Below, one piece after another: positions 3,491 to 16,274 of a stretch of DNA of 20,046 nt. The stretch's first letter is position 1. Every line of letters begins with the position of its first letter. Source of the DNA: a virus. Under the pieces are notes generated by a model. It saw only the letters and a list, made by a program, of their open reading frames with translations, was not told where the DNA came from and did not search any database. The DNA is taken from positions 167 through 20,212 of the IMG/VR virus record IMGVR_UViG_3300002231_001595, one strand, 5' to 3'. A program made the translations under genes and the position numbers.

Positions 3491-3790
3491 CTATATATTT
3501 TTCTTTGACTGTATTGCTGCTTGTCTACCAGCAAATGTCTTCTTACCTTTCAAGTAGATAAAAGCGACAACTAATTTAGGCCCACCGGGCTGTGGTGGGT
3601 CCCCAGGGCGGTCCCCAACCGTAGTGAGCACTTCGGCTCGTCCAGTGTGCTTAGGGTCCTTAGAGAGCCTCCTAGCGGCATGGTCGGCCTGTTTGAGGGA
3701 GATAGGACCGAACAGTTCTTTGTTAGCGTCCTCTCGGTAGTACCACACTAAAGAAGGAATATGTGTGTACGATGATCCTGTGTTAGTCAT
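3491..3790 (-). CDS. Hypothetical protein
   Basis: 99 residues. The N terminus has aromatic residues and a segment 'WYYREDANKELFGPISLKQADHAARRL' style that resembles GYF-2-type or similar small domains; the middle holds a Pro/Gly-rich loop (GDRPGDPPQPGGP), and the end is basic. The family is not recognised. The start ATG overlaps the stop of the HR-x-NGLPA gene at 3787 by 4 bases. Confidence 0.65.
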   Translation of the reverse strand: MTNTGSSYTHIPSLVWYYREDANKELFGPISLKQADHAARRLSKDPKHTGRAEVLTTVGDRPGDPPQPGGPKLVVAFIYLKGKKTFAGRQAAIQSKKNI

Positions 3791-4008
3791 ATCACTTGCT
3801 TTCCGTGTAGCCAGTATTCTTCTATCTTTTGGTTGTTCTCATACTTAACGAATGCAGGACCGTTCTCTCGGTGTGCATAGCCATGCACGTAATAAACTTC
3901 ACATCCATCAGCCATAACAAGGGCAGGCAAACCGTTGTCTCTGTGTCTAGCTCCACGCTCATCGTACCAGTTCTCAGTACCGTTTGGGTATATTTTTAGA
4001 CTAGTCAT
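3787..4008 (-). CDS. HR-x-NGLPA repeat protein, copy 1
   Basis: 73 residues with one and a half copies of a repeat: HRDNGLPA at 22-29, then a G-x-E-x-YY strand (35-40), HRENGPA at 46-52, and a closing EEYWLHGK (63-70). The pattern 'W…HR.nGLPA…G.E.Y…G..HRe.GPA…EyW..G' recalls MORN_2/YwqK-type repeats and small phage proteins of unknown function. It is first of three tandem copies, each linked to the next by a 4-8-base overlap. The function is unknown. The fold is probably an extended beta-hairpin meander. Confidence 0.8.
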   Translation of the reverse strand: MTSLKIYPNGTENWYDERGARHRDNGLPALVMADGCEVYYVHGYAHRENGPAFVKYENNQKIEEYWLHGKQVI

Positions 4009-4268
4009 TTGATGACAAAGTGTTCCTTTCGTAGGAAAGCCCCATCAACCCACCACTCCTTAACTAGGATCGGAGAACCAATACAGTCGTAAGAGTGATA
4101 TAGCATTGCAGGTCCACCTACCCTGTGCCTTAATCCCTGTTCAAAATAACTTTCGCTACCATCTACAGACACCATAGCAGGCAGTCCATTTTCTCTGTGG
4201 GGCTGATAACTGCCCTCTTTCGTCCATTGCTCGACACTATGATCCTGCGTATAAGTGTACTTAGCCAT
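4005..4268 (-). CDS. HR-x-NGLPA repeat protein, copy 2
   Basis: 87 residues. HRENGLPA lies at 24-31, HRVGGPA at 48-54, and EWWVDG at 71-76, the same three landmarks as in the neighbouring copies. The N-terminal 23 residues and the loop at 57-70 diverge freely. The start overlaps the stop of copy 3 by 8 bases and its stop overlaps the start of copy 1 by 4, so the three copies form one translational run. They look like an old tandem duplication, since identity is limited to the motifs. Confidence 0.8.
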   Translation of the reverse strand: MAKYTYTQDHSVEQWTKEGSYQPHRENGLPAMVSVDGSESYFEQGLRHRVGGPAMLYHSYDCIGSPILVKEWWVDGAFLRKEHFVIK

Positions 4269-4548
4269 GAATCGTACTTACGAAAGGTTTAGCAGGTTCC
4301 GAGCGAACAAGAGTACCACGCACCCACCACTCTTTTAATTTCCTCATAGTTCCAAATACTGGAATACAGAGTGTAACAGCTGGCCCACATTCTCGGTGCT
4401 TTACGCCATGCTCATAATATACTTCTCTACCATCAGGATGTATGATAGCGGGTAGTCCATTGGATCTGTGCCACAACTTACCTTTTGAGGATTCGATTGT
4501 CCAGTACTCTGTGCCGTCAGAACTTACTGTATAGTTAACCTTACCCAT
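4261..4548 (-). CDS. HR-x-NGLPA repeat protein, copy 3
   Basis: 95 residues from the ATG at 4548, chosen because GGAAGA sits about 8 bases upstream and the overlap with the SDR-like gene is 8 bases; an ATG at 4569 lacks this. The landmarks are HRSNGLPA at 27-34, HRECGPA at 51-57 and EWWVRG at 73-78. It is the longest of the three tandem copies, with a C-terminal extension of about 17 residues. The function is unknown. Confidence 0.8.
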   Translation of the reverse strand: MGKVNYTVSSDGTEYWTIESSKGKLWHRSNGLPAIIHPDGREVYYEHGVKHRECGPAVTLCIPVFGTMRKLKEWWVRGTLVRSEPAKPFVSTIHG

Positions 4549-5287
4549 GCATCTTCCATATGCCCGCACTCAGGCTTGTGGTTGCTCGATAACCAGTCTC
4601 TGCGTGAGTCCTTGTCATATCAGGAGCCACACGCCACATAATAGAGAATGGAAGAGTTTGTAAAGTGACCGGAGCTAATGTATGACCTCCGGTTGTTCGT
4701 TGCCATGTAATATCTGCGGCTCGGTGCAGATTTACAGGGGTCTCATGGCCCACGTTATACACACCAGTGAGTCCTTCAGTAAACTTAGACCAAAAGACAC
4801 TAAAGAACTTTATAAAGTCCTCCTGAAACAAAAAGGTTCTCTCTTGATACCCAGGTAGAGGGACGTTAACTGCTTGTTGCGCACTAATGTCCCCTAAATA
4901 TCCATGAATAATACCTGTGTGTATATCTTGTCCGTAAACATTAAACGTTCGCAAGACAAGTGTTCTAGGAGCTTCTCTGAACGCAGATGCCTCAGAAGCA
5001 GCACAACGAATGGTATATAATGACTTTGTGTCCCTTGTAGGAGGGATGATCAAGTCTGAATCCTCGGAAAAGGAGGCCACGGAATCACTACTCCAATAGA
5101 TATCTGAGGAGGAGAGTACTAACGTAGGTAGGTTAGGCATCTTAGGTGGGATAACGTGTCCCCCAAAGACATGATAGTCTGCTCCCCCAGCGTAATCTGC
5201 AAGCTCATACCCGTTTTTTATGAACCAGGATTTCACTAAACCTAGCGTATTGTGCCAACCAGACAGGTATACTATAGGTCGAGTCAC
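4541..5287 (-). CDS. Degenerate NAD-dependent epimerase (extended SDR)-like protein
   Basis: 248 residues from a GTG at 5287 with a GTGA overlap. The order of motifs fits an extended short-chain dehydrogenase such as a nucleotide-sugar epimerase: strand IVYLSG (5-10), LVLSSSDIY (57-64, like 'ysSs.vYG'), LVLRTFNVYG (110-119), a ligand loop with QERTFLFQEDF (148-158), and GVYNVG (175-180). The catalytic Y-x3-K is Y91-TIR-C95, so the lysine is a cysteine. The Gly-rich Rossmann motif is reduced to GWHNTLG, and the protein is about 60 residues shorter than usual. It is probably inactive as an oxidoreductase or has a new role, for example in binding. The fold call is good; the function is not. Confidence 0.7.
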   Translation of the reverse strand: MTRPIVYLSGWHNTLGLVKSWFIKNGYELADYAGGADYHVFGGHVIPPKMPNLPTLVLSSSDIYWSSDSVASFSEDSDLIIPPTRDTKSLYTIRCAASEASAFREAPRTLVLRTFNVYGQDIHTGIIHGYLGDISAQQAVNVPLPGYQERTFLFQEDFIKFFSVFWSKFTEGLTGVYNVGHETPVNLHRAADITWQRTTGGHTLAPVTLQTLPFSIMWRVAPDMTRTHAETGYRATTSLSAGIWKMHG

Positions 5288-6096: not shown

Positions 6097-6289
6097 ATAA
6101 CTCGTACTTCTTTCCTGCGTAGTTTAGCAGATTGTCTAAAAACTCACTATCCGACATGTAGAACATACCACTAGCCCTCTGATCCGGCGTGGCTGTAGCG
6201 ATTAGCTGTCCAACACGAAAGTCCGGGTACTTATCTAGTGTTTGCCCTAAAAGGGCTAGTATCTCCTTAGGTCTGCGATCAACGGCCAT
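6086..6289 (-). CDS. Hypothetical protein
   Basis: 67 residues. It has a helical N terminus (RPKEILALLGQTLDKYPDFRVGQLIATAT) and a C-terminal helix (DSEFLDNLLNYAGKKYELYG), a shape seen in many small phage proteins of unknown role. Its first residues MAVDR are identical to those of the nuclease that follows. The stop overlaps the nuclease start by 11 bases, and the start overlaps the end of the six-repeat gene. Confidence 0.65.
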   Translation of the reverse strand: MAVDRRPKEILALLGQTLDKYPDFRVGQLIATATPDQRASGMFYMSDSEFLDNLLNYAGKKYELYGR

Positions 6290-7352
6290 CTTCTGTTGCC
6301 TCTCTATACCTAGCCCCTAGTGTTTCAAAGGAAGCCAAGGTGTTATTCTCTAGCATTTTGATTCTAGGGTCCTTGATTGCGGCCTTCCACTCTCTCTTAG
6401 TTAGAGTAGCGCCAAACAAAGAGAAGGCTTCATCCATACCTGAGATTGCATTAATAGCAGGACCCTCGCTGTTATGAAGCATACCACAAAAGAAGTATTT
6501 ACGTAGCCCTAGTTCAGGACAAGTAAATGCTGCACCACCAGTTCGATGCAACTTCCCGTATTTTGCATACAAGTGCGCAGCGCCAACATCATCAACTACA
6601 GCTGTTGGTTCGTTGTCGTCGGCTCTATGTAGATCACCGAGAACTCTGTATTCATAGGTACCGTCTGGTCCCACAATAGCGGGTCCGTCAGAACGGTGCA
6701 GCTTGTTTCGCCTGTAGTATTTATTTGCGTGCACATTATAGAGGTTTGGCTCCTCATACTCATTAGGAACAAACGATAAGCTAAGTCCCCTGTTCCCGGT
6801 TTCTCCTATCTCTACCGCAGGTCCGTCTGTTCGGTGAAGCTCGTTAAACTGAAAGTATAGTTTGGATCCACCCGGAAAGATCACAGTGGGAGTATTCAAG
6901 TCACTGTGTAGAATTCCTCCCACATGGTGAACCTTAATCTTACCCTCAATTCCGTCTGTTTGTGTGTGGTGCGGATCCCACTCTCCCCAACCATCGCCTG
7001 CCCAAGCAAGACACCCCGCCACGACACTACGCCTTGTGTGGATCGAAGGAAGCCTGTCAGCGCTGAGAGAGAAGTGTAAGGTTGCCTTGTCTGTTACAGG
7101 ACGAATCTGATGTAAGCCTAGGAACTTATAATCTCTATCCCCATAGTTTGATCCTGAAAAGCATTGCTGTAAACCATCAAACACTAGTTTCTTAGTAGTT
7201 CCTTCGTGAAGCCTTGTTACTTGTACTTCCTTTGGTTCCCCAATAACTACATCAAATAGGTGTAGTTCTTCATCCTCTGTTAACTCATCAGCGGGTATAA
7301 TCCGAGTAACTCCGTTTTCAACGATTTCAACGAGGTCGTTTTTGTCCAACAT
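6279..7352 (-). CDS. Six-repeat HR-x-GPA protein
   Basis: 357 residues. It has an N-terminal domain (1-145) without visible repeats, then six spaced HR-type repeats: LHSDLNTPTV 148-157, LHRTDGPAV 172-180, LHRSDGPAI 218-226, LHRADDNEPTAV 241-252, LHRTGGAAF 268-276 and LHNSEGPAI 292-300, each followed by a Gly and Tyr strand. The C terminus is a helical tail (320-357). It is the long relative of the single-repeat proteins in this window; here the motif is GPA rather than GLPA. Spacing of 20-45 residues suggests a beta-solenoid or meander. Its function is unknown; binding to a protein or glycan is possible. Confidence 0.75.
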   Translation of the reverse strand: MLDKNDLVEIVENGVTRIIPADELTEDEELHLFDVVIGEPKEVQVTRLHEGTTKKLVFDGLQQCFSGSNYGDRDYKFLGLHQIRPVTDKATLHFSLSADRLPSIHTRRSVVAGCLAWAGDGWGEWDPHHTQTDGIEGKIKVHHVGGILHSDLNTPTVIFPGGSKLYFQFNELHRTDGPAVEIGETGNRGLSLSFVPNEYEEPNLYNVHANKYYRRNKLHRSDGPAIVGPDGTYEYRVLGDLHRADDNEPTAVVDDVGAAHLYAKYGKLHRTGGAAFTCPELGLRKYFFCGMLHNSEGPAINAISGMDEAFSLFGATLTKREWKAAIKDPRIKMLENNTLASFETLGARYREATEDGR

Positions 7353-8033: not shown

Positions 8034-8227
8034 CGCTTCTTTTGGGGCTTACGCTGCGCACGAGACGTGCTAAGGCGCTCCAAGAACATGTCCAAGGTCG
8101 CGCCCGGAGTCACACCAAGAACCTGTAGGCGCCCGTCTAGGCTCTTACAGTAGAAGTCTCGATCCTTACCATACAATCGAGCCTTGACGTTTGCGGAGGG
8201 AATCTGAACCGAAATATTGACATTCAT
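8030..8227 (-). CDS. Hypothetical protein
   Basis: 65 residues, with likely beta strands at the start (NISVQIPSANVKARLYG), a basic tail (RAQRKPQKKR) and a leucine-rich helix between (ATLDMFLERLST). The basic tail could bind nucleic acid, but no family is recognised. Both ends overlap the neighbouring genes by 4 bases. Confidence 0.65.
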   Translation of the reverse strand: MNVNISVQIPSANVKARLYGKDRDFYCKSLDGRLQVLGVTPGATLDMFLERLSTSRAQRKPQKKR

Positions 8228-8874
8228 AGGTACACCACCAAAGGAGCATTTGTTACGTTATATCGTTCATTGCAAACAGAAGCATTTGCAACCACAGCGT
8301 TATTTAGGTTGTACAGGCCATAGCCGTTATGGATGTGGCCACACACAACAAGTTTAAGGTTATCCATAGACTCAATAAGTTGCTTTTGGTACTTACACCC
8401 TACAGGTTCCCCTCGAACCGTTCTGTCTCCACGGTCTAGTGGAGGACCATGGGTTACTAAGATATCCGTGTTCGCAGGAACCTTGTCCCAGACTTGCTTC
8501 ATGTTGGGGCGATTCACATTAAATGCCCAATCGTAGAACCAAGGCTGCCTGGGTTCACCGTAGATGTTTAGTCCCTCTACAGTAACGGACTCTTGGTTTA
8601 GTGTGATGATTACACTTTCTGCTTCTTCGTTTAGTAGATCTACTGCTTTGTCTGGATCATCCTCAAACAGCAAGTCGTGGTTACCGGCAACAAAGATTTT
8701 ATGCTTCGCGGGTTGCTTACTAAACCACTTACCAAACTCGCGGATACGATGAGGCCGTCCCTGGAACGTGGCATCGCCAGAGTGTAGTAGAACATCACAC
8801 TCAGGGATTACTAACTCTCCGTGCTTAATGTGCGTATCGGAGATACACACGATCTTAGTCTTCGTTTTAGTCAT
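8224..8874 (-). CDS. Metallophosphoesterase (MPPED/UPF0046-like)
   Basis: 216 residues from the ATG at 8874, which overlaps the upstream TGA (ATGA); a GTG at 8880 is the alternative. The calcineurin-type metal motifs are all present: SDTH (12-15), HSGD (31-34), GNHD (64-67), VTHGPP and CGHIHNGYG, with the His/Asp ligands intact. Spacing and the 'HTH…D…GNHD…GHxH' order fit the small MPPED-like group that hydrolyses phosphodiesters or phosphate monoesters. Unlike the SbcD-like gene of this phage it is short and has no partner ATPase, so it is more likely a nucleotide or cyclic-nucleotide phosphodiesterase, possibly against host signalling. The substrate is unknown. Confidence 0.85.
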   Translation of the reverse strand: MTKTKTKIVCISDTHIKHGELVIPECDVLLHSGDATFQGRPHRIREFGKWFSKQPAKHKIFVAGNHDLLFEDDPDKAVDLLNEEAESVIITLNQESVTVEGLNIYGEPRQPWFYDWAFNVNRPNMKQVWDKVPANTDILVTHGPPLDRGDRTVRGEPVGCKYQKQLIESMDNLKLVVCGHIHNGYGLYNLNNAVVANASVCNERYNVTNAPLVVYL

Positions 8875-9125
8875 ATCCACTCTATGGAGGCAGGCTTATC
8901 CTTGCCTTTTGCTTCCGCTAGTTCTTTCTCTAGTCTGTTTATTGTAGTGAGCAGGAAAGTGATTCCCTTGCTGAGTTTTACTCTCATAGGCACAGGAAGG
9001 CGAGTTAAACAGTGACACCCTCCATTTGTATGGACACCTGTAGACCTGCCCCACACACACCCTCCGTCCGAGCAACCTACTCCTAGTGCTCTCAGACTAT
9101 CATGTATATCTTCAGAGATTTTCAT
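8871..9125 (-). CDS. Hypothetical protein, Cys/Gly-rich
   Basis: 84 residues from the ATG at 9125, which has a strong AAGGAGAGG ribosome site and an ATGA overlap with the upstream gene; a longer in-frame start at 9152 lacks both. The N-terminal half has four Cys and many Gly (VGCSDGGCVWGRSTGVHTNGGCHCLTR style), the rest is helical and basic. It is possibly a small zinc protein. No family is recognised. Confidence 0.65.
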   Translation of the reverse strand: MKISEDIHDSLRALGVGCSDGGCVWGRSTGVHTNGGCHCLTRLPVPMRVKLSKGITFLLTTINRLEKELAEAKGKDKPASIEWI

Positions 9126-9409
9126 TGCTGGCCTCTCCTTACGGCAGCCCACTCTTTGATTTCTTTTCGTGCAAGTGCTGGTGTTTTCTGTACTTTACCG
9201 TATCTAGTTCGGCACTTTACTGAAAACCAGTCCTTCCAAGAATCTTCACCATAGTTGTATAGATTAGCGATGTAGGACTCTAGTAATCGGCTGGACCCAC
9301 CAAATCGAACATAGATAGCGGACATTCTCCCTACAACTTCGCCGTCCTCTAGTATGTCTGTAACACACGTATCCTTTGTTATGCGCGTTGATGTTCCGAA
9401 GGAGATCAC
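9122..9409 (-). CDS. Hypothetical protein
   Basis: 95 residues from a GTG at 9409. The GTGA overlap with the 36-residue gene upstream supports this start. It has beta strands at the start (TDILEDGEVVGRMSAIYVRFGG), then helices and a basic C terminus. No known family is recognised. Confidence 0.65.
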   Translation of the reverse strand: MISFGTSTRITKDTCVTDILEDGEVVGRMSAIYVRFGGSSRLLESYIANLYNYGEDSWKDWFSVKCRTRYGKVQKTPALARKEIKEWAAVRRGQQ

Positions 9410-9516
9410 TTTTCCAGTTCCTGCTCATACCTGTACTCTACAGTAGGAGACCACCTAGGGTAGTAGTAAGCATCCGATTCAGCAAGCAAAAACCCTAGGT
9501 CCTTTGTAGAGGCCAT
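9406..9516 (-). CDS. Small hypothetical protein (36 aa)
   Basis: 36 residues from the ATG at 9516 (MASTKDLGFLLAESDAYYYP…), ending at a TGA that overlaps the GTG of the next gene by 4 bases. It has aromatic and acidic residues (DAYYYPRWSPTVEYRYEQELEK). The ribosome site is weak and the gene is short, so the overlap is the main support. It sits just after the lipoprotein gene. Confidence 0.5.
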   Translation of the reverse strand: MASTKDLGFLLAESDAYYYPRWSPTVEYRYEQELEK

Positions 9517-9547
9517 CTGTAATGGTGACGTACTCACTCTAGCAGAG

Positions 9548-10228
9548 CTAAACAAACGGAAGCAGCATCATAGGAACTAGAAGGTTGTACATGTTCATGG
9601 CACAGCAACTTCCAGTTCGAAGGTGAAGGTATAAGGAGTAAACGAAAACACCAATAGACACAAGATAACTTCCATGTCCTGTAGGAGTAGTGGACAGCTG
9701 TAGATCGTTCATCCAAATCGGCCTAGGGTTATCTTCGTCTGTAAACCAGGCATGTGCTGTAGTGAAGTGTGCACATGCTGGAGCCTCTGGCAAAAGATCG
9801 GCGTTTACAGGAACCAACGGAGGTCTACTACTACGCATATGAACAGAACAGTCTTGATCAAGAGCAAAGTCTGCAACTTCAACAGTGATCAAAGGATGCC
9901 TCACTACGTCCTCTCCACCCATATACCTGTAAGAGTATGTGTAGGTTGAGTCAAAGGAAATATCTGAGTCTGTTACACATAGATTAGAGATTTCAGAAGA
10001 CGGAGTAGAATAGGTGGTGTGAGTGCTTCGATCAAAGGCCAGCAATGCTCGGGCATTGGCTACTTCCGTACAGGATGGCCCTACAGAAGCATCGGGGGTG
10101 ACAAAGGAGCCGTCCGTATACCCGCTGTCTGTGGTTGGTTGTGTTCCGCTGTCCATGGGTCCGACAACGGGACCCGCAGAGCCACAGGCAGAGAGGAGAA
10201 GAGCAAGGATTAGTGCGTTGTTGGTCAT
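9548..10228 (-). CDS. Secreted lipoprotein with its own promoter (possible moron or superinfection-exclusion gene)
   Basis: 226 residues. A short hydrophobic N terminus (ALILALLL, 5-12) leads to a lipobox LSAC with Cys15 and Gly at +2, so lipidation and probably outer-membrane sorting are predicted. Then comes a D/S/T/G/P-rich linker (to about 50), the kind common in lipoproteins of Myxococcota and related bacteria, and a globular part with further cysteines (53, 84, 127, 152 and 208-209) that could form disulfides. The last 40 residues are unusually hydrophobic. Its promoter is described separately; an mRNA from it would begin at the start codon. Phage lipoproteins often block superinfection or alter the cell surface; that role is inferred. 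The neighbouring genes show no signal peptide. Confidence 0.8.
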   Translation of the reverse strand: MTNNALILALLLSACGSAGPVVGPMDSGTQPTTDSGYTDGSFVTPDASVGPSCTEVANARALLAFDRSTHTTYSTPSSEISNLCVTDSDISFDSTYTYSYRYMGGEDVVRHPLITVEVADFALDQDCSVHMRSSRPPLVPVNADLLPEAPACAHFTTAHAWFTDEDNPRPIWMNDLQLSTTPTGHGSYLVSIGVFVYSLYLHLRTGSCCAMNMYNLLVPMMLLPFV

Positions 10229-10234
10229 AACACT

Positions 10235-10262
10235 ACTATAAGACGGCTAGCGGGGGTGTCAA
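10235..10262 (-). promoter_or_regulatory. Near-consensus sigma-70 promoter for the lipoprotein gene
   Basis: On the minus strand TTGACA (10262-10257, a perfect -35) is followed after 16 bases by TATAGT (10240-10235, 5 of 6 in the -10). Only six bases (AGTGTT) lie between the -10 and the ATG at 10228, so transcription should begin at or within a base or two of the A of the start codon. The promoter occupies the gap between the methyltransferase and lipoprotein genes, one of few gaps of this size in the window. Confidence 0.8.
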
Positions 10263-10266
10263 CCCA

Positions 10267-11298
10267 TTATTGGATCAGGGTTCCGACAAACAAAAACTCA
10301 GTTACATGCGAACTACTCGGCGTTCCTACCTTAACACCCGACTTATTGGAGATTCCGATCTTATGGCCGATGTAGGCAGGGTGCTTTATCTCATAGGTTC
10401 TAAGATTGTACTTCTTTCCTAACGTATCTTCGATCTGCTGCCTACTAAGATATCCGGTACTATTGAAAGACAATACAACATACTTTGACTTGAGTAGGTC
10501 TACTACCTGCTGGAATGCAGTAAGTGCATATTTTGAGCTATTCCATAGAGACTTGCGGGTCTTTGTGTCTATTCGCTTCCGTGCCTTCCCGTAGACCTCT
10601 GGTTCGTCCCACTTCACTAAGGTTTCCCAAATATGATAGTTACCTAAGTAGCTGTGCTGGTTGTAGGGAGGGTCTAGGTACGTAAGGTCTGCCGTGTAGG
10701 TCTTCAGACACTCTGTGTCCAGCATGTTCGAGGTGGAGCCGGTGCCTGTGAGGCTGAGTGAAGGAATACGGAGCGACAGAGGATTGAAGCTACGCTTGGA
10801 CCATTGCTTAAGGTAAGCCATCTGTACGCCGCATGTAGAATCAACACGGTCTGCTGCCTCCATGAGGGACGTGAGTAGTATGGACTTGAACAACTTGTCT
10901 GTGAGGTTCATGTCTTCGATGCGATTACGCACTGCTTCTATCTTTTGTGCGTTCTCCTTCTGGAAAAACCAAGATTCGTCAGAGTACGTGTGTGTAAAGA
11001 ACCCACTCTTAAGATACTTGGCATGATACCCTGAAACACCTTCGTGTAGGTCTATAATGGCTTCTGTAGCATCTTTTAGGTAGGTGAATGCATCTGCAGC
11101 AACGTAGCAGTTAGCTAGGGTGTAAGCATAAGCTGCGTAGTCATTCGCATGAACATGATAACCTAGTGTCTTTAGGTCAAAACCTACTCGGCTTGTACCG
11201 GAGTAGAGATCTATTACTGTACCCTTGTCGAGAGTATCTGCAATAGCCTCTCGTATCTTAGGGATAAGTAGTCTCTTTGATCCCAGGTACTTAATCAT
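10267..11298 (-). CDS. D12-class N6-adenine DNA methyltransferase
   Basis: 343 residues. The N terminus MIKYLGSKRLLIPKI is typical of Dam/D12-class enzymes. Motif I for AdoMet binding is DLYSGTSRVG (30-39), and motif IV is DPPYNQHSY (209-217), the catalytic DPPY that flips and methylates adenine. The region between (about 60-205) is the target-recognition part and varies. The recognition site cannot be read from sequence; GATC is only a guess. It would protect phage DNA from host restriction or regulate its processing. It overlaps the upstream gene by 4 bases. No matching restriction enzyme is visible. Confidence 0.88.
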   Translation of the reverse strand: MIKYLGSKRLLIPKIREAIADTLDKGTVIDLYSGTSRVGFDLKTLGYHVHANDYAAYAYTLANCYVAADAFTYLKDATEAIIDLHEGVSGYHAKYLKSGFFTHTYSDESWFFQKENAQKIEAVRNRIEDMNLTDKLFKSILLTSLMEAADRVDSTCGVQMAYLKQWSKRSFNPLSLRIPSLSLTGTGSTSNMLDTECLKTYTADLTYLDPPYNQHSYLGNYHIWETLVKWDEPEVYGKARKRIDTKTRKSLWNSSKYALTAFQQVVDLLKSKYVVLSFNSTGYLSRQQIEDTLGKKYNLRTYEIKHPAYIGHKIGISNKSGVKVGTPSSSHVTEFLFVGTLIQ

Positions 11299-11513
11299 TG
11301 TTTGTGCTCCCTCATGACCACTCCGCCGTTTTCGTAGTAGCTCTCGTCTCCACTGTCACAGACGTATGCAGGAAGTCCGTTGTCTCTGTGCGCGTAGCCA
11401 TTATTATTGCACCACCACTCAGAGTGAACTCCGTCTTCCCAAATAAGAACTACCTTACCTCCATCAAAGACTATTGACTCTTTCCAGTTAACATACATTA
11501 TGGTGTAATTCAC
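11295..11513 (-). CDS. HR-x-NGLPA repeat protein, copy 4
   Basis: 72 residues from the GTG at 11513. HRDNGLPA is at 42-49, followed by a CDSGDESYYENG strand. The second HR repeat is lost, so this is a single-repeat copy, with a long beta-rich N terminus ending in EWWCNNNG. An ATG at 11498 is an alternative start; a GAGAGGTGA ribosome site lies upstream of it but at a long spacing. Its stop overlaps the methyltransferase start by 4 bases, so the two are translationally coupled. The function is unknown. Confidence 0.75.
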   Translation of the reverse strand: MNYTIMYVNWKESIVFDGGKVVLIWEDGVHSEWWCNNNGYAHRDNGLPAYVCDSGDESYYENGGVVMREHKQ

Positions 11514-11520
11514 CTCTCAT

Positions 11521-11721
11521 CTAACTTACTTTCATCTTAACTAGGTAACCACTAGTAGCATAATATGCCTCATATCCATTACTCACTATAACGGCGGGTA
11601 ATCCGTTGCCCCTGTAAATCTTACCTGAGGAGTTACTCCACAACTCTTTAATGACTCCGTGTGTTCTAGAAATCAACTTCACATTAACGTCACCAAACCT
11701 ATGTAAAGTAATTTTGTCCAT
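11521..11721 (-). CDS. HR-x-NGLPA repeat protein, copy 5 (diverged)
   Basis: 66 residues. The motif is YRGNGLPA at 36-43, so the His is replaced by Tyr, followed by NGYEAYYATSGYL. No second repeat. It lies between copy 4 and an unrelated gene, with short gaps rather than overlaps. The change of the invariant His suggests a copy under relaxed constraint. The function is unknown. Confidence 0.7.
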   Translation of the reverse strand: MDKITLHRFGDVNVKLISRTHGVIKELWSNSSGKIYRGNGLPAVIVSNGYEAYYATSGYLVKMKVS

Positions 11722-12571: not shown

Positions 12572-12850
12572 TTACTGGTTTAGCTTACGAGTTCTCTTAC
12601 CATCTTCAGTTACGTGATACACTGATAACTTTCTTCCGCGTACCCAATACTCTTCTACCTTAATTTTATCTAAGAAGTATACCAGAGCAGGACCATTTTC
12701 CCTGTGGCGTTGTCCATACTCAAAGTAGTACTCTCCTCCACGCACATTAACAACCGCAGGAAGTCCACTAGAACGATGCAACAAAGCATTCCGTCCTGAT
12801 AAGGTCCACCGCTCTCCATCCTCGTCTATTTTGCATATCTCCTTATCCAA
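12572..12850 (-). CDS. HR-x-NGLPA repeat protein, copy 6
   Basis: 92 residues from a TTG at 12850; there is no ATG upstream in frame before a stop. HRSSGLPA lies at 25-32, HRENGPA at 49-55 and EEYWVRGR at 66-73, so it has the full two-repeat layout of copies 1-3. A basic tail (KRTRKLNQ) follows. Upstream (higher coordinates) lie a relic of a further copy and a hairpin. The function is unknown. Confidence 0.75.
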   Translation of the reverse strand: MDKEICKIDEDGERWTLSGRNALLHRSSGLPAVVNVRGGEYYFEYGQRHRENGPALVYFLDKIKVEEYWVRGRKLSVYHVTEDGKRTRKLNQ

Positions 12851-12987: not shown

Positions 12988-13377
12988 CTAGCCATGTGAC
13001 TCACCTATAAGACCTAAGCCTAACCGTTTCAAGTCCTCTAGGCTCATTTTGTACACAATCGTGTCAGAGAAGCCATTGGCCGCTCTTCTGGCGTTTAAGA
13101 TCTCTTCTTGTAAGTGTGCTGCTTTCTTACATAAGGAGACTAATACTTCTCCACGCCAGTTGCGATCCTCAGAGAAGGTTTGAACAAAGGCCGCGATAAC
13201 AACCTCTGTAGGTGAAGACTCGAAAGTATTCTGGATGTTCTCCATAACCGCCGTATATTCTTGCTCTAACTTCGCTGCCTTCTCGTATAGTGACTTCTTA
13301 ACGTCTGATCCAGAGTAGGCGAACTGCCAAGCTCCGTCACTAATATCAACTACCGCTACTGCATTCTTATTGGCCAT
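12988..13377 (-). CDS. Hypothetical protein, coiled helical
   Basis: 129 residues. The sequence after residue 25 is mostly helical (VKKSLYEKAAKLEQEYTAVMENIQNTF, then further Leu and Ala helices). It overlaps the end of the SbcC-like gene by 11 bases and may work with SbcC/SbcD, but that is only a positional guess. It is not a known repair gene by eye. Confidence 0.65.
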   Translation of the reverse strand: MANKNAVAVVDISDGAWQFAYSGSDVKKSLYEKAAKLEQEYTAVMENIQNTFESSPTEVVIAAFVQTFSEDRNWRGEVLVSLCKKAAHLQEEILNARRAANGFSDTIVYKMSLEDLKRLGLGLIGESHG

Positions 13378-13750
13378 GGAGTTTAGACACCGTATCCTTC
13401 TTGACTACTGTTATGGTGTGAGGAAAATATTCCTTCAGAGTCTTATTGTGTGTGACACAAAACACACTACCGAAGTCCTTGTTCTGCTGGGTGAGCAAGG
13501 ACACAATACCAGACAGCCCAGAATCGTCAAGATTCTCAAAGGGCTCATCCATAAACCGAAAGTTTATGTTCTTGTTGGATCTTGAGGCGGCTAAGTCCCC
13601 TAAAGCAAGGGCAATACACACGTCTGCTCTTGCTCGTTCTCCTGAAGAAGAACTCTGGTAAGATTCTCCGCCATCTTTGTTGATCACCTTCACAGCGAAG
13701 ATACTACGAGTCTCGCCGTTCTTCAAGGTCTTTTCCGTCTGAAAACTCAA
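13367..13750 (-). CDS. sbcC: SbcC/gp46-like ATPase, C-terminal lobe (frame-shifted fragment)
   Basis: 127 residues in the frame that follows the second lesion. It has the ABC signature region SSSSGERARAD (the usual LSGGE is altered to SSSGE), Walker B FRFMDEPFENLDDSG and the H-loop CVTHN. These close the ATP site that begins with the Walker A of the N-terminal fragment. Removing one T of TTTT near 13742-13745 joins it smoothly to the preceding piece (KIEF then QTEKTLKNGETR), so the three pieces are one gene of about 637 residues. A TTG at 13750 would allow separate translation, but a lone lobe could not hydrolyse ATP well. Confidence 0.8.
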   Translation of the reverse strand: MSFQTEKTLKNGETRSIFAVKVINKDGGESYQSSSSGERARADVCIALALGDLAASRSNKNINFRFMDEPFENLDDSGLSGIVSLLTQQNKDFGSVFCVTHNKTLKEYFPHTITVVKKDTVSKLHGQ

Positions 13751-15101
13751 TCTTCATGTCCCCATTTGTTGCAATGTCTGCATACTTCTGTACTCGACTA
13801 TTGAGTAACGGAGTAACATGCTTGAGAAGATGAGGACGTAGACCCTTTGCACCGAAGGCATCGACCCAGAACGAACACTTGTCTGCTTTTTCTGTAACTG
13901 CAGTTAGCTCTACTGTAGCTTCTTTAACCTTAGTCTGTAGTTTCTCTATATCTTCATTTACTCTTTGAAGCATAGGAAGCACAGAACACTGCTCGCCTTG
14001 CTTGTCTTGTATCTGCTCTTGTACTCTAGTTAGTTGTAGTAGTAATGCTTGCTTGTTGTCCTTCATGGACCGGAATGAATCAATGTCCAAAGCAACCCTA
14101 TTGAGCTGATTTGAAACATCCGTAAGATTTCTACTTACCTCAGCCAAGCTATCTTCAGCCTTGCCTTTGACTAGCTCATACTCAGACGCAGCCTCACTGA
14201 GCCTTTCTAAGACAGAGCCCATGTGCCTTCTGTGTTCCTTAAGATCCTGTTGGTACTGCTCCAGTACCTTGGACTTGTGTACCTCTCCTACTTCCTGCGA
14301 ACACACAGGACAAGATCCAGTAAGAGCTTGTGTTTTGCTGATAGAGCCCTCAAGAGACTTGATGGCCGACTCTGCTAAGGACAACTCCAACCGGATCTGG
14401 TTGTTCTGCTTGTTTGCCTCTAACGCTAGCGCAGCAAGGTAGTTTCCACAGTTGTTCAGTTCCTCAGTTAGTTTAGCCTTCTCCGCAGATAGCGATTGTT
14501 GCTCTTCTAGTAGGTCTTCTTCACTAACATTGATCACAATAGCGTCTACGTCCTCATGTAGACTTTCTTCTGTGGCCTTAAGAGTAGTTAGTTCATTTGC
14601 TTTCTTTTGTTCAAAGGAAGCAATGTTGTCCTCTAGCTCCTTTTTTGTAACCTCATGCACACCTATCTCTCGTTGGTGAGACTCTAGCTGAGAGGATAGC
14701 TGAGCCTGCTCCTTAGATAGTGCAGCTGTCTGCACTTTTGCTAGCTTCTGCGCCTCAGAGAATACCTCTAGCTGTAGCAAGCCCTCTAAGGTGGTCTTAA
14801 TTCCACTGTCTGTGAGGGAAGCAAGCTTGATCTTTGACCCTGGCATCATGCAACTAAACGTATAAAAATCAAGATCTAGGATCTTATTAATACGCTCTTG
14901 TGTAAGAGCCACTTTGGCTCCTGTGGCGTCTTCGTCGTTAATTGTCAGCAGGAGGCCATTATGTGGCGACATTTCCTTACACTTACGATACCGCGTAACC
15001 ACATAGGTATTCTCTTCGTCTTGGAAATGCACAGATACTTTACAGTTCTTGCCTATTTGACGCTTGATTACTGCATCGTCCTTGAGACCCCGAATGGTCA
15101 C
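13704..15101 (-). CDS. sbcC: SbcC/gp46-like ATPase, coiled-coil and zinc-hook part (frame-shifted fragment)
   Basis: 465 residues from a GTG at 15101; the same frame is open up to 15200 and carries the Walker A loop (DSNGAGKSS) before the GTG. The coiled coil runs from about 120 to 420, with the zinc-hook CPVC in the middle (TGSCPVCSQEVGE), the feature that joins two Rad50/SbcC arms. The frame ends in a false tail after KIEFSDG. With SbcD (16271-17371) this would form a double-strand-break nuclease, as gp46/gp47 do in T4. The broken frame is discussed in the findings. Confidence 0.85.
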   Translation of the reverse strand: MTIRGLKDDAVIKRQIGKNCKVSVHFQDEENTYVVTRYRKCKEMSPHNGLLLTINDEDATGAKVALTQERINKILDLDFYTFSCMMPGSKIKLASLTDSGIKTTLEGLLQLEVFSEAQKLAKVQTAALSKEQAQLSSQLESHQREIGVHEVTKKELEDNIASFEQKKANELTTLKATEESLHEDVDAIVINVSEEDLLEEQQSLSAEKAKLTEELNNCGNYLAALALEANKQNNQIRLELSLAESAIKSLEGSISKTQALTGSCPVCSQEVGEVHKSKVLEQYQQDLKEHRRHMGSVLERLSEAASEYELVKGKAEDSLAEVSRNLTDVSNQLNRVALDIDSFRSMKDNKQALLLQLTRVQEQIQDKQGEQCSVLPMLQRVNEDIEKLQTKVKEATVELTAVTEKADKCSFWVDAFGAKGLRPHLLKHVTPLLNSRVQKYADIATNGDMKIEFSDGKDLEERRDS

Positions 15102-15141
15102 TCCCCATAGCGCCCAGCATAGCGAGTCTAGGAGACTGCTC

Positions 15142-15279
15142 TTACCGGCTCCGTTGGAGTCCTTTCCTGCGCCGTCCTGATTGTCCCCTAGGACGCAACG
15201 TTAGACCCACAGAATCAATTAGGAACTCATCGTCCTCAAAGGACAAGAAGTTCTGTATCTGTACCTTATTGAAGATCAT
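15142..15279 (-). CDS. sbcC: SbcC/gp46-like ATPase, N-terminal fragment
   Basis: 45 codons from the ATG at 15279 (which overlaps the upstream TGA), ending in a stop at 15142. Residues 1-31 (MIFNKVQIQNFLSFEDDEF…) match the start of gp46/SbcC proteins, 'i.nFlSf.~.~…L'. A +1 shift near 15190-15200 moves into the frame that carries GDNQDGAGKDSNGAGKSS, the Walker A. After that point this frame is nonsense (RGQSGRRRK…), so the natural protein must change frame here. Confidence 0.75.
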   Translation of the reverse strand: MIFNKVQIQNFLSFEDDEFLIDSVGLTLRPRGQSGRRRKGLQRSR

Positions 15280-15577
15280 TCAGATTCGTGTCCCAGAAGT
15301 TCATCAAAGGGAATCTCTAGTTGATTTTCGTCTTTCAAGAGGAACTTCCTTTGTCTCTTGATCCTCTATCCTCGTACATACGCAAGTAAGTACCACTGAG
15401 TAGTCCCCAGGACTCCAATCTAGCACCATCTAGGTTCTCTAGTTGGCTAAATACTGCAGCATAGATAGCCTGAGACACCGAGTAGGACTGGCCGTCCTCA
15501 GGCACAACCACACCAGCATCTGCATTGACTGTGTAGACCTTTTGTTCATCGACTGCAATTAAATGTACTCCACTCAT
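15276..15577 (-). pseudogene. Hypothetical protein with one frame break
   Basis: Frame one runs from the ATG at 15577 (with AGAGAG upstream) for 80 residues and ends in a serine-rich tail at 15335. Another frame then continues IKRQRKFLLKDENQLEIPFDELLGHESE to a TGA at 15276, which overlaps the ATG of the SbcC-like gene in the typical 4-base way. This indicates that the intact protein had about 100 residues with its end at 15276, and that one base is missing or two are extra between about 15355 and 15375. Its function is not known. Confidence 0.6.
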
Positions 15578-15580
15578 TCG

Positions 15581-15832
15581 CTACTCTCTTTCTTGTTCTT
15601 TAGTGTAAAAATCAAGCTCTAAGTAAGCACTGTCAAAGCCGTTCTCTACATAAGACTCGTTACCGTCAACTCCTACCAGGGCAGGTAAACCGTTACCTCG
15701 GTGTAGAATGCCGTTTTTACTCCAACACTCCCTATATAAAGCACCACCATAGTACTCAATACGAATGAGTACTCCACCAGGCTGGTGTATTGTCTTCTCA
15801 GAATACTGATATTCTGATTCTTTCATTGTCAC
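15581..15832 (-). CDS. HR-x-NGLPA repeat protein, copy 7
   Basis: 83 residues from a GTG at 15832 (GTGA overlap); an ATG at 15826 is an alternative. HRGNGLPA is at 44-51 after the strand YRECWSKNG, followed by GNESYVENG. The second repeat is absent and replaced by an acidic tail. It is the last of three tandem copies leading from SbcD towards SbcC. The function is unknown. Confidence 0.75.
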   Translation of the reverse strand: MTMKESEYQYSEKTIHQPGGVLIRIEYYGGALYRECWSKNGILHRGNGLPALVGVDGNESYVENGFDSAYLELDFYTKEQERE

Positions 15833-16059
15833 GGAGCCTCAACATAGTAACCATCAGGAGCCTTCTGGCCAAGAAACTTACCACGGAGCCAGTAGGACTC
15901 ATACCCCAAGGAATTCGTAACTGCAGGAAGACCGTTTTCTCTGTGTAGATCTCCCATTATGGTTTTCCAGTGTTCAGTGCACACACCATTAAAAACATAG
16001 TTCTCAATAAACACGACTTCTGATTTTCCAAACTCTATTCTTGTGCGCTTTACCAACAT
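15829..16059 (-). CDS. HR-x-NGLPA repeat protein, copy 8
   Basis: 76 residues. HRENGLPA at 39-46, preceded by EHWKTIMGDL, followed by LGYESYWLRGK. A single-repeat copy. The N terminus (residues 1-30) is beta-rich and shares little with the others. The stop overlaps the start of copy 7 by 4 bases. Confidence 0.77.
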   Translation of the reverse strand: MLVKRTRIEFGKSEVVFIENYVFNGVCTEHWKTIMGDLHRENGLPAVTNSLGYESYWLRGKFLGQKAPDGYYVEAP

Positions 16060-16064
16060 TATGA

Positions 16065-16274
16065 TTATGAGTGATCTACCTTAGTGCGCTGATATACACC
16101 ACCAAGGAAATATTCCTCTGTACCGCTACTGTAAACTATTGCAGGTAGTCCCCCTCCTCGATGAGGTTCGAACTTTTTGTTCAGCCATTTCTCAGCAGCT
16201 ACAACCCCGTCCTCATCATACGCGATTTTTACAGTGTGTCTGCCTGCAATAACAGTACGGTACGAGAAAGTCAT
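16065..16274 (-). CDS. HR-x-NGLPA repeat protein, copy 9
   Basis: 69 residues. HRGGGLPA at 38-45, following EKWLNKKFEP, with a SSGTEEYFLGG strand after it. It begins with an ATGA overlap on the SbcD stop, so it is translated directly behind the nuclease. It is the first of three tandem single-repeat copies. The function is unknown. Confidence 0.77.
   Translation of the reverse strand: MTFSYRTVIAGRHTVKIAYDEDGVVAAEKWLNKKFEPHRGGGLPAIVYSSGTEEYFLGGVYQRTKVDHS

Follow-up and report, generated by a model that had tools for sequence, protein, structure and literature searches.

The minus-strand gene that starts at the ATG of positions 10226..10228 is best read, at a probability of roughly 0.6, as an accessory phage gene for an exported envelope lipoprotein, expressed from a promoter of its own that is used by the host RNA polymerase. 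The window, by which we mean the whole stretch of 20,046 nucleotides that was analysed, is almost the entire IMG/VR record IMGVR_UViG_3300002231_001595 (20,212 bases), itself a linear fragment. We describe the surroundings of the gene, the promoter and predicted start, and the protein, before turning to its possible host and role.

Genomic setting

Every recognised gene in the 20-kb window lies on the minus strand, and the lipoprotein gene sits within a block of recombination and replication genes. Those recognised encode a single-strand binding protein, RecA/UvsX, SbcD, SbcC, a ParB-like protein, a RusA-like protein and an HNH endonuclease, along with several small genes that have no assigned function. 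Immediately upstream is a D12-class N6-adenine DNA methyltransferase gene (10267..11298, minus strand; Pfam PF02086, E=3.5e-34) that ends in a TAA at 10269-10267. Its relatives in phages and bacteria are 45-51% identical, and the closest in a named phage (46%) belongs to Thermus phage phiLo, where it is annotated 'putative M.Tsp509I'. Downstream on the same strand follow a 43-aa ORF with a GTG start and a coding-like codon score (9406..9537), the stop of which overlaps the next GTG, and then further co-directional genes that overlap one another by GTGA-type junctions (together 8224..9409; 9122-9409, 8871-9152 and a metallophosphoesterase at 8224-8880).

The nearest relative found is a 14,295-base contig (L129) whose genes match those of the window between 20009 and 12282 in the same order, with proteins 35-72% identical (70% for RecA). 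The lipoprotein gene is located past the end of this common block, and so no close relative informs on its conservation. A megablast of the whole window against phages returned no match, tRNA and Rfam searches of the window likewise returned none, and no viral relatives were found in a search with SbcD.

Two other features of the fragment deserve mention. The ORF at 4541-5287 (minus strand) weakly matches PHROG 540, a family of nucleotide-sugar epimerases (E=0.00075), and is possibly a surface-sugar or DNA-modification gene. At least nine small minus-strand genes, paralogues dispersed among the core genes, carry the repeat motif 'HRENGLPA(I/V)..DG.E.Y(Y/F)..G', including those at 3787-4569, 6279-7352, 11295-11721, 12572-12850 and 15581-16274; none of those tested had a Pfam match, and at one such place, between RecA and SbcD, the nearest relative carries a different gene.

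Promoter and leaderless start

The gap between the methyltransferase stop codon and the ATG at 10228 is 38 bases long and reads, on the minus strand, TGGG, TTGACA, 16 bases, TATAGT and AGTGTT, with the two hexamers, the 16-base spacer and the six bases before the ATG just as the initial annotation had described them. The -35 hexamer (10257..10262) matches the consensus at all six positions and the -10 hexamer (10235..10240), which begins 12 bases before the ATG, at five of six. This site ranks best of the 15 promoter-like sites in the window and is the only one on either strand with at least 11 of 12 consensus matches, where a first-order Markov model predicts about 0.18 per strand. By chance alone, such a site would place its start point on one of the 41 gene starts with a probability of about 0.002, and would fall within 100 nt upstream of a gene start with one of about 0.04, both being post hoc estimates. 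Among the genes scanned, the lipoprotein gene has the best start-proximal promoter, and the earlier description of the gene as self-promoted thus holds, this being the single best promoter in 20 kb and placed exactly in the gap before it.

The further claim that the gene is expressed independently does not fare as well. No terminator-like site was found on the minus strand between 10228 and 8224, so the promoter would feed a short operon that includes the overlapping downstream genes; it is probably an internal operon promoter, not the promoter of a lone gene. Nor did we find grounds for expression in the prophage state, which had also been suggested: none of the window ORFs searched was recognisable as an integrase, repressor, tail or lysis gene, the surroundings are recombination and replication genes, and a temperate-phage reading was rejected for want of a recognised integrase or repressor.

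Seven bases after the -10 box is the usual distance to a transcription start point. The seventh base here is the A of the ATG itself, which points to an mRNA that probably begins at its first codon. The ATG is the sole possible start for the signal peptide, with an in-frame TAG seven codons upstream, and no stretch of at least 3 nt before it matches the Shine-Dalgarno sequence AAGGAGGT. The initial annotation was right on this last point, and yet the missing site is only weakly distinctive, since six other genes in the window have none either, 14 have matches of only 3 nt, and the signal across the whole window is hardly above background. The signature of leaderless genes in bacteria is a TANNNT box that precedes the start codon by about 12 bp (PMC3160421), and TATAGT, 12 bp before the ATG, fits this TA-led pattern (TANNNT some 10-12 bp before the start, no Shine-Dalgarno site), which bears out the suggestion of a probably leaderless transcript. 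TA-led bacterial genes and lambda cI transcribed from PRM resemble the present gene in the distance of about 12 bp from -10 box to ATG and in lacking a Shine-Dalgarno site (PMC3160421), but cI is a repressor gene, and the start of the lipoprotein mRNA is a prediction from sequence. Delta-proteobacteria belong to the groups in which leaderless genes abound, these having been reported in 8 of 33 of their genomes, at a mean of 15.8% of genes (PMC3160421); if the host is delta-proteobacterial, a leaderless start is unremarkable.

Signal peptide, linker and mature domain

The first codons (10187..10228, minus strand) encode a predicted signal peptide, MTNNALILALLLSA, with a hydrophobic run ALILALLLSA, a mean h-region hydropathy of 2.8 and a lipobox, LLLSA|C, at codon 15, as first noted. 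Residues 12-15, LSAC, match the pattern [LVI][ASTVI][GAS]C, and among 284 open-frame start codons in all six frames of the window the ATG at 10228 is the only one followed by such a lipobox. The signal peptide is short, and its n-region, MTNN, has neither K nor R, which is atypical; a positive charge there is usual for a Sec signal and is not absolutely required. The product is a predicted lipoprotein and a predicted substrate of Lgt and LspA. The predicted lipidated Cys15 is followed by a 38-residue, DSG-rich linker to Cys53 that is free of K, R and E (GSAGPVVGPMDSGTQPTTDSGYTDGSFVTPDASVGPSC; Cys15 and linker together 10070..10186), in keeping with the odd linker reported initially.

The 3' end of the gene requires correction. 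Taken in one frame, the table-11 ORF runs to a TAG at 9550-9548 and gives 226 aa with a hydrophobic tail. Codon log-odds favour frame 0 until about 9660 and frame +1 from there to a TGA at 9597-9595, and single-sequence structure models, weak in both cases, point the same way: the 226-aa reading yields a disordered-looking model with a helical end (pLDDT 34, pTM 0.20), the frame-changed 210-aa reading an all-beta model (pLDDT 47, pTM 0.42) whose best-modelled part is the new C terminus. Because codon statistics and models agree, we prefer a mature domain at 9595..10069 (minus strand) with a frame change near 9640-9665, and do not accept the tail of the 226-aa product as its real C-terminal end; the initial annotation, which ended the gene at 9548, is probably wrong here and the true stop is probably that at 9597-9595. 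The SbcC-like gene of the window (13367-15334, minus strand) is likewise broken, over three frames, compared with one intact 634-aa ORF in the nearest relative (L129, 10952-12856), and so assembly indel errors or decay are the likely source of the frame breaks in the window, including that at the 3' end of the lipoprotein gene. Promoter and signal peptide are unaffected by the frame change. In the preferred reading the domain has four cysteines, at residues 53, 84, 127 and 152, and this even number, together with the beta-rich model, is compatible with an oxidising compartment.

Relatives and a clue to the host

No relative of the lipoprotein was found in viral contigs or in genome contigs, and tblastn against named phages gave only chance Maribacter matches (E=5). 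Searches of Pfam, NCBIfam, PHROGs and PDB sequences found nothing beyond signal and linker, as did a search of 379 Myxococcota genomes. A search for similar folds, made with the low-confidence model, yielded nothing at E<=0.001, its lipocalin-like and fHbp matches (E>=0.39) not being meaningful. These searches having produced no homologue, conservation backs neither the protein nor its promoter.

The signal and linker are nevertheless a clue to the host. Matches to the two together (beginning at residue 15 or earlier, without a stop, E up to 0.1, tallied by hand) occurred in 35 of the 379 genomes from Myxococcota (the phylum of the Sandaracinus genome), against 4/372 for the phylum of the Planctomycetota genome and 6/379 for that of Crenalkalicoccus; this is a 6-9-fold excess (Fisher P 1e-7 and 1e-6 against the two control phyla) of matches in low-complexity composition, not homology, and one that the larger Myxococcota genomes somewhat favour. 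An aligned example is GCGDDDGSTTPMDSGVEDAGATDGGIATPDAG (from L116). Myxococcota lipoproteins with linkers of this style (for example those of L116, L125, L126 and L107) share with the phage protein a lipobox followed by repeated DSG/DAG and by Cys, but the similarity stops at the signal peptide and linker, and K or R occurs more often in their signal peptides. The best bacterial relatives of the adjacent methyltransferase are in delta-proteobacterial and Myxococcota MAGs, in a family that is widespread. Given how much commoner such a signal and linker are there than in the two other phyla, a host within Myxococcota appears likely.

The juxtaposition of methyltransferase and lipoprotein was also seen elsewhere: of 14 other contigs from phages, three unrelated ones (L005, L017 and L003) have a lipoprotein gene adjoining a D12-class methyltransferase. 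In L005 (IMGVR_UViG_3300035670_000014, 170,948 bases; L005:10001-11491), as here, the gene directly downstream of a methyltransferase relative encodes a lipoprotein, one with a D/S/E-rich linker, and has a promoter-like site of its own (TTGATA-17-TATATT, 10/12); this protein is unrelated in sequence and has 101 aa, and the gene has a GTG start preceded by a Shine-Dalgarno-like TAGGAG, hence a leadered transcript. The lipoprotein-like gene lies directly downstream of the methyltransferase in L017 (L017:4998-6366) and directly upstream in L003 (L003:9493-11056). Of the 24 ORFs that flank the methyltransferases in these 14 contigs, 3 are lipoprotein-like, compared with 11 among 1,714 phage ORFs elsewhere (P 0.0008, for a pattern found after looking, counted with a simple, crude predictor that was loosened before the count, and involving mutually unrelated lipoproteins). 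At 80 bacterial methyltransferase loci there was no lipoprotein excess (3/106 versus 8/309), and Thermus phage phiLo, the only close relative among named phages, has no annotated lipoprotein beside its methyltransferase. We treat the pairing as a lead only. That the two genes might form a recurring exchangeable module, with DNA modification directed against internal defence and an envelope protein against competitors, is a doubtful extension of it. In one further contig (L007:10001-10943) the relative of the methyltransferase is broken over several frames.

Alternative readings

The gene might instead be a passenger, or moron, a host-type lipoprotein gene captured together with its promoter, without a role in phage growth, adapted in base composition and possibly decaying. 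Self-contained promoters are typical of morons, the linker is in the style of host lipoproteins, the protein is without relatives, and decay could account for the broken frame near 9650; against this, its GC (0.48) and GC3 (0.43) match those of the phage genes and its codon scores are phage-like, so that any capture would have to be old, and the frame would have been preserved up to the final ~50 codons. We regard this origin as unlikely, if still deserving of serious consideration. It is more doubtful again that the promoter exists mainly for the downstream operon (the small ORFs and the metallophosphoesterase), the lipoprotein being its first cistron and the leaderless start incidental. The overlaps among those genes and the uninterrupted path to them would suit such an arrangement, but the cistron that gains most directly from so near a promoter is the first, and read-through from upstream would already be enough for the genes beyond it.

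The promoter match could also be fortuitous, in which case read-through from the operon upstream would supply the transcript and ribosomes would re-initiate past the stop codon of the methyltransferase gene. The ATG lies just 38 nt behind that codon, genes are closely packed and run in one direction across the whole window, and use of Shine-Dalgarno sites is weak throughout; set against a site that has no equal at 11/12 in the 40 kb of both strands and is precisely positioned, coincidence seems very improbable. Least credible of all is that the protein is an outer-membrane spanin acting in lysis. Its sole PHROG match is to an Rz-like spanin, a weak one (E=0.076) that is limited to the signal peptide (residues 1-22), the protein is far larger than typical o-spanins, and no inner-membrane partner, endolysin or holin was recognised among the nearby ORFs searched; an Rz1-like assignment was rejected on these grounds.

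Proposed mechanism and role

Returning to the reading of an accessory envelope lipoprotein with its own promoter, we propose that host RNA polymerase with the housekeeping sigma factor uses the near-consensus promoter in the 38-base gap and begins transcription at the ATG or within 1-2 bases of it, giving a leaderless mRNA that 70S ribosomes would translate without a Shine-Dalgarno site. The promoter would be a separate entry into the co-directional operon, such that the lipoprotein could be made without the upstream block, probably together with the small overlapping genes downstream. After Sec-dependent export, the product would be lipidated at Cys15 and processed by signal peptidase II; what remains would be a beta-rich domain, probably with disulfide bonds, carried by a flexible DSG-rich linker in the style of Myxococcota lipoproteins. 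Its most likely role would be to change the surface or periplasm of the infected cell during infection, with the blocking or masking of a receptor against further phages as the leading candidate.

Phage lipoproteins of this kind are known. Llp of T5 is a superinfection-exclusion lipoprotein that jams FhuA from the periplasm (PMC9586334) and is expressed early in infection (Decker 1994, as cited in PMC9586334), and Rtp45 is another, acting on LptDE (PMC12685063). The present protein would be, like Llp and the Cor proteins of T1-like phages, a phage-encoded lipoprotein, and the exclusion lipoproteins Rtp45 and Oekolampad of LptDE-targeting phages are comparable as phage lipoproteins that have a disulfide and act at the outer membrane (PMC12685063). 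The differences are considerable. Known exclusion lipoproteins are ~6-8 kDa and adjoin receptor-binding genes; Llp is small (61 residues aligned; PMC9586334) and encoded directly downstream of the receptor-binding gene pb5, and Rtp45 and Oekolampad are ~6 kDa, whereas the protein described here is ~20 kDa with a long linker, has no sequence similarity to solved structures, and is encoded beside methyltransferase and recombination genes. No similarity to the Llp, Cor or Rtp45 families was found in the Pfam, NCBIfam, PDB-sequence or phage tblastn searches, and no receptor-binding or tail-tip gene lies beside the gene, its neighbours being the methyltransferase and small genes, and none of the ORFs searched across the 20 kb being recognised as a tail gene. 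Given the much smaller size of Llp and Rtp45 and the position of their genes next to those for receptor binding, an exclusion role for the present protein is an analogy and not membership of a family. As one part of the overall reading, exclusion or receptor masking is thus a tentative suggestion, at rather less than even odds.

The find is a modest one, an orphan within a familiar class of phage accessory genes. If the reading is true, this orphan envelope lipoprotein would join the small set of phage lipoproteins, coming as it does from a phage of a poorly sampled host group, probably the Myxococcota, and would offer a compact test case of how the host polymerase expresses a leaderless phage gene. 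The style of the linker is, in addition, a usable clue to the host of an uncultivated phage.
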